A stretch of DNA of 42,991 nucleotides from Ectothiorhodospiraceae bacterium (GTDB taxonomy: Bacteria > Pseudomonadota > Gammaproteobacteria > XJ16 > Halofilaceae), in assembly GCA_007134775.1 (NCBI GenBank), contig SLKC01000077.1, forward strand, positions 1 through 42,991. The letters run 5' to 3'. The notes beneath the pieces are model-generated. The model made no database searches. It was not told where the DNA came from and worked only from the letters and a program-made list of their open reading frames with translations. Positions 28,341 through 29,737 of this stretch are shown here, piece by piece; the first letter of the stretch is position 1; each line of letters opens with the position of its first letter. The position numbers were made by a program, and so were the translations under genes.

Positions 28341-29737
28341 ACACCTTCTCCCTTGCCGTGAGCCAACTCGCGAGGCGCCCGCTGCAGACGGCGCTCAACG
28401 CCGTGGTGATGAGCCTGGGTATCGCGATGATCACGGTGCTGCTGCTGGGTCACAGTCAGTTCCAGGAACGCATGCAGCAGGATGGCCGCGGCATCGACCT
28501 CGTGGTAGGTGCGCCTGGCAGTCCGATGCAGCTGATTCTCTCCAGTGTATACCATGTCGATATCCCGACCGGGAATATCCCGTTGGGACCCGCACGCGAG
28601 GTGATCGAGCGCGAGCCGGCGGTGGAACGGATCATGCCCGTTGCCCTTGGAGACAATTTCGAAGGCTACCGCATCGTGGGCACGCGGCCATCCTATGCAC
28701 AGCACTACGGCGCGGAGCTGGCCCGTGGGCGCATGTGGGAACAGAGCATGGAGGCCGTCGTCGGGGCCGAGGTGGCACGCGAGACCGGGCTCGGCGTAGA
28801 TGACTCCTTCGCCGGCGCTCATGGGCTGGGTTCGGGGGGGCACGTCCACGACTACGCCCCTTACGATGTTGTCGGCGTGCTCGATTTTTCTGGCAGCGTC
28901 CTCGATCGGCTGATTCTTACGCCAGTGCAGAGTGTCTGGGACGTTCACGACCACGACCACGACCACGACCACGACCACGACCACGACCACGACCACGACC
29001 ACGACCACGACCACGACCACGAGCACGAGCACGACCACGACCACGACCACGAGCACGAGCACGAGCACGAGCACGAGCACGAGCACGAGCAGGATCACGG
29101 AGATCACGGAGATCACGGAGATCACGGAGATCACGGAGATCACGGTGAATACGGTGAGCACGGGCACGACGAGCCGGAATATGCGGCGGAAGAGCAGATC
29201 ACTGCGCTCCTGGTGAGTTACGAATCGCCGATCGCGGCCGCCCGGCTGCCGCGCGAGATCGACGAGAACACGCCCTGGCAATCGGCCGAACCCGCCTATC
29301 AGACGGCCCGGCTGATGACCCTGTTGGCACCGGCGCGTGCCGGAGTCCAGGTCATCGGTGGGTTGCTCATCGTGGCCTCACTGCTGAGTGTCTTTGCGGT
29401 GCTGTACCAGAATCTGCGCGAGCGCCGTTACGATTTCGCGATAATGCGCGCCATCGGCGCGGGGCCCGCCCACGTATTCCGGCTCACCCTTGCCGAGGGG
29501 ATGCTGATGGTTGTGCTGGGACTCGGCCTCGGGCTGCTGCTCGGGCACGCCAGCATCGCGCTACTGGGTGAGTTCACCGCCGCGGGTCGGGCACTCGGCT
29601 TGAACGGCCTGACGTGGGTAACTGAGCAGGGTGCGCTGGTCGTCGGCGTCCTTGCAGCCGGTGTGCTGATCGCCCTCGTCCCAGCATGGCTTGCGTCCCG
29701 GACCGAGCCCGGGCCCACGCTCCGCCGCGGTTATTGA
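28337..29737 (+). CDS. FtsX/MacB-type ABC permease with a long His-rich periplasmic tract
   Basis: The 466-aa permease has the MacB/FtsX layout. It has one N-terminal membrane helix (about 20-38), a large periplasmic domain (about 40-330) and three C-terminal helices (about 337-357, 384-408, 431-451). NLRERRYDFAIMRAIGAGP is the coupling segment. Inside the periplasmic domain, residues 204-277 are almost pure His with Asp, Glu or Gly: HD x12, HE x2, HD x3, HE x7, then DHG x6, with 32 His in all. A His pair (GGHVHDY, about 169-171) precedes it. Such a tract should bind zinc, nickel or copper. The gene overlaps the ATPase gene. The membrane topology is predicted by eye. Confidence 0.9.
   Translation: MNTFSLAVSQLARRPLQTALNAVVMSLGIAMITVLLLGHSQFQERMQQDGRGIDLVVGAPGSPMQLILSSVYHVDIPTGNIPLGPAREVIEREPAVERIMPVALGDNFEGYRIVGTRPSYAQHYGAELARGRMWEQSMEAVVGAEVARETGLGVDDSFAGAHGLGSGGHVHDYAPYDVVGVLDFSGSVLDRLILTPVQSVWDVHDHDHDHDHDHDHDHDHDHDHDHDHEHEHDHDHDHEHEHEHEHEHEHEQDHGDHGDHGDHGDHGDHGEYGEHGHDEPEYAAEEQITALLVSYESPIAAARLPREIDENTPWQSAEPAYQTARLMTLLAPARAGVQVIGGLLIVASLLSVFAVLYQNLRERRYDFAIMRAIGAGPAHVFRLTLAEGMLMVVLGLGLGLLLGHASIALLGEFTAAGRALGLNGLTWVTEQGALVVGVLAAGVLIALVPAWLASRTEPGPTLRRGY
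28946..29146 (+). repeat. in-frame microsatellite coding for His-Asp/His-Glu/Asp-His-Gly
   Basis: Hexamer units CACGAC and CACGAG run from 28946 to 29089: 12 CACGAC, 2 CACGAG, 3 CACGAC, 7 CACGAG. After one CAG codon, six 9-nt units GATCACGG(A/T) run from 29093 to 29146. Unit lengths of 6 and 9 keep the frame whatever the copy number, so length changes would alter only the size of the metal-binding tract. Blocks of identical units point to expansion by slippage or unequal exchange. Confidence 0.97.

Follow-up and report, generated by a model that had tools for sequence, protein, structure and literature searches.

The ZrgABCDE transporter of Vibrio cholerae and V. parahaemolyticus is controlled by Zur and combines a separate ATPase, a DUF3299 protein and a four-helix, MacB-like permease with a large periplasmic domain (PMC9820375, PMC9817125). 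One of its components, ZrgA, has an unstructured, His-rich loop to which several zinc ions bind, most of them weakly (PMC9820375). A comparable system, PA4063-PA4066 of Pseudomonas aeruginosa, is also Zur-regulated and consists of the MacB-type PA4064 and PA4065, the DUF3299-family protein PA4066 (structure 4hsp) and the ZrgA homologue PA4063, which has two His-rich loops. This system has been reported as an exporter linked to pyochelin and cobalt (PMC11481552).

We describe here an operon that resembles both systems in its putative Zur control, its separate ATPase, its MacB-type permease and its DUF3299 protein. It lies in a 42,991-nucleotide stretch of an Ectothiorhodospiraceae genome (contig SLKC01000077.1, analysed whole and hereafter called the window), and its genes follow the order ABC ATPase, permease, DUF3299 protein:

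27621..27639, forward strand: AATGATATGGTATAACACT, a palindrome resembling a Zur box that lies 26 bp ahead of the ATPase start, with 13 of 16 matches to ATGTTATANTATAACAT
27666..28340, forward strand: ABC ATPase of the MacB/LolD type, 224 aa (PF00005, E 2.7e-31)
28337..29737, forward strand: FtsX/MacB-type permease, 466 aa, its ATG overlapping the ATPase stop (PF12704 MacB_PCD and PF02687 FtsX)
29943..30497, forward strand: DUF3299 protein, a ZrgE/PA4066 relative (PF11736, E 1.4e-6)

The DUF3299 gene is separated from the end of the permease gene by 205 bases, and its product has a signal-like N-terminus and a CPYC motif around an invariant Cys129. A single-sequence search of solved structures with this protein returned chance matches only; a family profile, which includes five canonical Zrg sequences, then found 4hsp (E 1e-28). 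Judged by sequence, the operon is the core of a Zrg/PA4063-4066 zinc-starvation system. It differs from both described systems in one component: in Vibrio the zinc-binding ZrgA (PF10986) is a separate His-rich protein and P. aeruginosa has PA4063, whereas here no PF10986 protein was found in the window's own genome and the permease itself bears a His tract.

A candidate Zur box lies upstream of the operon. The score of AATGATATGGTATAACACT was equalled in none of 40 shuffles and, across the whole 3.06-Mb genome, the degenerate Zur pattern is matched exactly here and at one other site with two mismatches. That second site (G000:C122, L130:2671-6533) precedes a gene for a secreted or outer-membrane-like protein, which has a His-rich stretch, HDHGHGHGDGHSHG, and no Pfam or NCBIfam match; after this gene come a second ZnuA, an ABC ATPase and a permease. 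A Zur-like regulator gene is also present in the genome, divergent from a ZnuA gene, after which an ABC ATPase and a permease are found as in znuCB. This ZnuA carries a long His-rich loop and thus resembles the window permease in having a His/acid stretch in a periplasmic zinc protein of the Zur regulon; however, the loop of ZnuA belongs to a soluble binding protein and that of the window lies within a permease. Zinc, which a first-pass annotation of this DNA named for a growth test, is supported by the Zur box, the Zrg-type operon and the Zur-regulon neighbours, from which we infer that it is the likely metal of the transporter.

The surroundings of the operon were also surveyed. A promoter and terminator scan was uninformative, and a link to defence systems was rejected, PADLOC matches being only to the LolE-like membrane part. 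At 32707-34738 of the window, a two-component pair has as best NCBIfam matches cztR_silR_copR (a heavy-metal response regulator) and cztS_silS_copS (a sensor kinase), both below cut-off. The pair adjoins a DegP-type protease, and the adjacency of response regulator and DegP is kept in congeners. Two other genomes of the genus (L143 and L144) have the same flanks, namely NUDIX, SRPBCC, DegP and response regulator (window 26744-32642); in them NUDIX and SRPBCC lie about 1.2-1.3 kb apart, compared with 3.1 kb in the window. The ATPase-permease-DUF3299 operon was not found between these flanks in either congener; both possess a canonical Zrg-type permease and ZrgA elsewhere, so the window species differs from its congeners in the Zrg variant that it holds. 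It is possible that the window species gained the operon by transfer, or else its congeners might have lost it. The G+C content of the operon genes is like that of their neighbours.

The permease belongs to the MacB superfamily (FtsX/LolE/MacB fold), with a MacB_PCD periplasmic core followed by an FtsX C-terminal membrane part, and falls below the NCBIfam cut-offs for LolCE and FtsX. An AlphaFold model computed from a 77-sequence alignment (pLDDT 87.2, pTM 0.80) matches the folds of MacB (5gko), a Streptococcus pneumoniae MacB-like protein (5xu1) and LolCDE, with best Z values of about 19-25. The fold and topology are those of the MacB/LolCDE/FtsX mechanotransmission superfamily. Unlike in MacB, the ATPase is on a separate chain; further differences are the His tract and the probable zinc regulon, and no adaptor was seen among the 25 commonest families of genes adjoining the operon in relatives. 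Pfam domains, model and fold matches all agree with the earlier placement of the tract in the periplasmic part of a mechanotransmission permease, where it interrupts the core domain. The relevant positions are as follows:

28820..28822, forward strand: codon of His162, a residue shared by all 77 aligned permeases
28847..28849, forward strand: codon of His171, conserved as His in all but one of the 77 aligned permeases
28904..28906, forward strand: codon of Asp190, likewise shared by all 77 aligned permeases
28946..29089, forward strand: 24 His-(Asp/Glu) dipeptides, a 6-nt array starting at His204 (Tandem Repeats Finder, codon reading)
28964..29191, forward strand: segment predicted to be disordered, residues about 210-285 (AlphaFold, pLDDT <50 for most of 218-278)
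29093..29146, forward strand: six Asp-His-Gly units, a 9-nt array, imperfect to 29163 (Tandem Repeats Finder, codon reading)

In the model, a helix ending at residue 209 and a strand starting at 290 flank the disordered tract. His204, the first tract residue, is likewise invariant (77/77), and it is a guess that His162, His171, Asp190 and His204 together form one metal site.

Codon reading bears out, to the last codon, the previous description of the tract as 24 His-(Asp/Glu) dipeptides followed by six Asp-His-Gly units. Residues 204-251 comprise 12 HD, 2 HE, 3 HD and 7 HE in this order, written CAC GAC or CAC GAG; a single Gln separates them from the six Asp-His-Gly units (five DNA copies of GATCACGGA and one of GATCACGGT), and the whole stretch spans 228 bases. 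The underlying 6-nt and 9-nt DNA repeats, noted in the same annotation, are recovered by Tandem Repeats Finder as two arrays: one with 25.7 copies of a 6-nt period at 28946-29099, scoring 231, and one with 7.9 copies of a 9-nt period at 29093-29163, scoring 107. No other arrays were found in the window but two that score 54 and 55. Codon choice in the repeats differs from that of the rest of the permease gene: Gly is encoded by GGA in 5/6 cases in the Asp-His-Gly units versus 4/42 elsewhere (binomial p 4e-5), and His by CAC in 32/32 cases in the repeats versus 6/8 (p 1e-4). This bias points to repetition at the DNA level and not merely at the protein level; copying of DNA units would account for it better than codons converging by chance. 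The tract is in frame within the open reading frame at 28337-29737 and both units are multiples of three, so that changes by whole units preserve the frame, as had been anticipated.

A scan of species-representative genomes yielded 80 related loci, mostly from Gamma-, Beta- and Alphaproteobacteria, nearly all of which keep the order ATPase-permease-DUF3299. The neighbour clusters that recur have MerC, FUR/Zur, CobW, TonB-dependent receptor, DUF1826 and TonB proteins as their representatives; the commonest families among 85 genes adjoining the operon are FUR (10) and MerC (7). Upstream of the ATPase, a Zur-box match of at least 12/16 is present in 18 of 87 loci, against about one expected from shuffles or random stretches of the same loci. 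In a permease tree built without the tract, a 100/100 branch separates 67 permeases from 10 canonical ones, most of the latter from ZrgA-carrying genomes; the tree is rooted for display only, and the Vibrio and Pseudomonas sequences themselves are absent from the tree. The window permease falls within the 67-member clade, apart from the ten canonical Zrg permeases sampled, and its sister is a Natronospira permease (L039). As a separate observation, in the gammaproteobacterial group with long tracts the DUF3299 proteins are extended at the N-terminus by about 100 residues or more (L069:1971-2990, L040:7431-8333, L048:7591-8475, L051:7590-8462).

All 67 clade permeases have a loop at the tract site, of 12-153 aa (median 46) with 1-46 His (median 9). 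Pooled, these loops contain 21% His and 33% Asp+Glu, compared with 1.9% and 7.4% outside the loop. At least six His are present in the loop of 41 members; the other 26, many of them betaproteobacterial, are His-poor. In the canonical permeases, the loop at this site has 21-30 aa and 1-2 His (10/10). Most clade members carry a His/acid loop at the same site; this point, and the near-absence of ZrgA from the clade described below, were missed by the first-pass annotation.

Tandem arrays were detected in 24 inserts, including that of the window; one of these (L046) is likely a chance 16-nt match, and the units of the others range from 6 to 96 nt, all multiples of three. Loop length differs in all 40 His-rich pairs closer than 0.3 substitutions/site versus 4 of 9 such His-poor pairs, although pairs share ancestry and hence are not independent events. 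Three GAACAT units, or 18 bases, separate the tracts on two contigs of a single MAG that are 93.7% identical; L047 and L052, about 94-97% identical around the tract, show a 48-base difference; and L085 and L088 have identical cores and loops that differ by two residues. The tract had been suggested to vary in length between strains: what we observe is in-frame difference between close relatives or sister species, and at that level the repeat number is not constant. We infer from these sequence comparisons that selection maintains the composition of the loop, rather than its length or sequence.

We then searched whole genomes for ZrgA as PF10986. It was found in 1 of 52 genomes of the window clade and, by the same search, in 9 of 10 canonical-permease genomes (Fisher p 5e-9, kinship ignored). 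ZrgA was likewise missing from the 15 His-poor members of the clade that were in the alignment and tested, so its absence follows clade membership and not the His tract. One tested member only, L040 (genome G095), has both a permease His tract and a ZrgA in its genome. For both reasons, a rule whereby the His tract occurs if and only if ZrgA is absent was rejected, and that the tract 'replaces' ZrgA should be read as an interpretation. Thirteen betaproteobacterial or Burkholderiales loci with short His-poor loops contain a small ORF with a signal-like start, several His/Cys and no Pfam match, mostly located between the permease and DUF3299 genes (L115:7086-7508, L042, L049, L054, L058, L060, L061, L067, L070, L092, L112, L114, L118). 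This ORF possibly encodes a third kind of periplasmic partner. Other His-poor loci have no such candidate.

How may such a system work? An explanation to which we give an even chance is that the operon represents a ZrgA-less variant of the Zur-controlled Zrg system, with the zinc-capturing element placed in cis as a repeat-encoded permease loop. Based on the candidate site and the family, Zur would leave its box at 27621-27639 when zinc is low, and ATPase, permease and DUF3299 protein would be made. The long His/Asp/Glu loop, predicted to be disordered and carried by the MacB-type periplasmic core, would then serve as a periplasmic zinc antenna with many weak sites, and would do in cis the job that the His-rich ZrgA does in trans. 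It may raise local zinc near the conserved His162, His171, Asp190 and His204, and ATP-driven movement of the core might hand the metal to the cytoplasm or to a periplasmic acceptor, the direction being left open. Comparison of relatives suggests that tandem duplication and slippage, in steps of three bases, created the tract and changed its length. In support of this explanation, the loop of ZrgA itself is unstructured and His-rich with mostly weak zinc binding, the His/acid loops across the clade come from unrelated repeat units and vary in length between close His-rich relatives, and the candidate Zur box and Zur-regulon-like neighbours accompany a conserved operon in a clade from which ZrgA is nearly absent. 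The predicted disorder of the loop, the MacB fold and the Zur-like gene next to ZnuABC in the window's own genome also speak for it. Other observations argue against it: His-poor members (about 12-23 aa, 1-5 His) also have no ZrgA and L040 has both elements, the nearest relative, Natronospira L039, has a loop of only 19 aa with 6 His, and the P. aeruginosa homologue is reported as an exporter.

This last report raises another scenario, in which the MacB-type pair exports a metal-chelator complex, such as a metallophore, when zinc is scarce, with the His tract stripping or sensing the metal on the exit side. The pyochelin/cobalt genetics of P. aeruginosa and the MacB-type fold of the permease would fit. 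However, no HlyD/MacA-type adaptor is seen among the 25 commonest families adjoining the operon in relatives, and the mutants of V. cholerae and V. parahaemolyticus resemble zinc-uptake mutants; we consider export unlikely. We also hold it rather unlikely that the tract merely stores or buffers periplasmic zinc beside the transporter, off the transport path. Its length and sequence are hardly constrained, as a static buffer would allow, and the His-poor members retain the conserved core residues and presumably still work; yet the loop lies inside the core domain, starting at the invariant His204, and zinc starvation, in which storage would serve little purpose, is likely the only condition under which the protein is made.

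Hypervariable length, differing units and the 26 of 67 loops that are short or His-poor are what one would expect if an insertion-accepting loop had gathered slippage-prone, low-complexity DNA without any selected function. That independent units converge on the same His/Asp/Glu composition, and that canonical permeases, from genomes mostly with ZrgA, all have a short loop with 1-2 His, makes a tolerated repeat distinctly improbable. An assembly artefact in the repeat is the least credible of these explanations, with very little chance of being right: the genome is a draft in 201 contigs, but the arrays are interrupted (GAC/GAG pattern), the frame is open to the end, and comparable tracts occur in the named isolates Sandaracinobacteroides hominis, Sphingobium xenophagum and Sphingomonas ursincola. 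In one relative, the contig ends inside an HDHDHD tract (L113:6600-6677), suggesting that short-read assemblies can break here, and the copy number of the tract in this draft genome could still be off.

If the antenna reading is extended from the window to its relatives, we may tentatively hypothesize a widespread branch of Zrg systems without a separate binding protein, where zinc capture resides in a repeat-encoded permease loop whose capacity is tuned between species by copy number. This broader view is rather less probable than not. In the open-licence papers searched, we saw neither a His tract in a Zrg-type permease nor a ZrgA-less branch described.

The role of His-rich loops in zinc uptake has been described as still debated (PMC8561739), and the transport direction of the Zrg/PA4063-4066 systems is contested, with import proposed in Vibrio and export in Pseudomonas. 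A ZrgA-poor clade presenting loops of 12 to 153 residues on one conserved core would make both questions testable by deletion or swap of a single loop. This also looks like a clear bacterial case of a disordered segment that keeps its composition as tandem repeats change its sequence and length.
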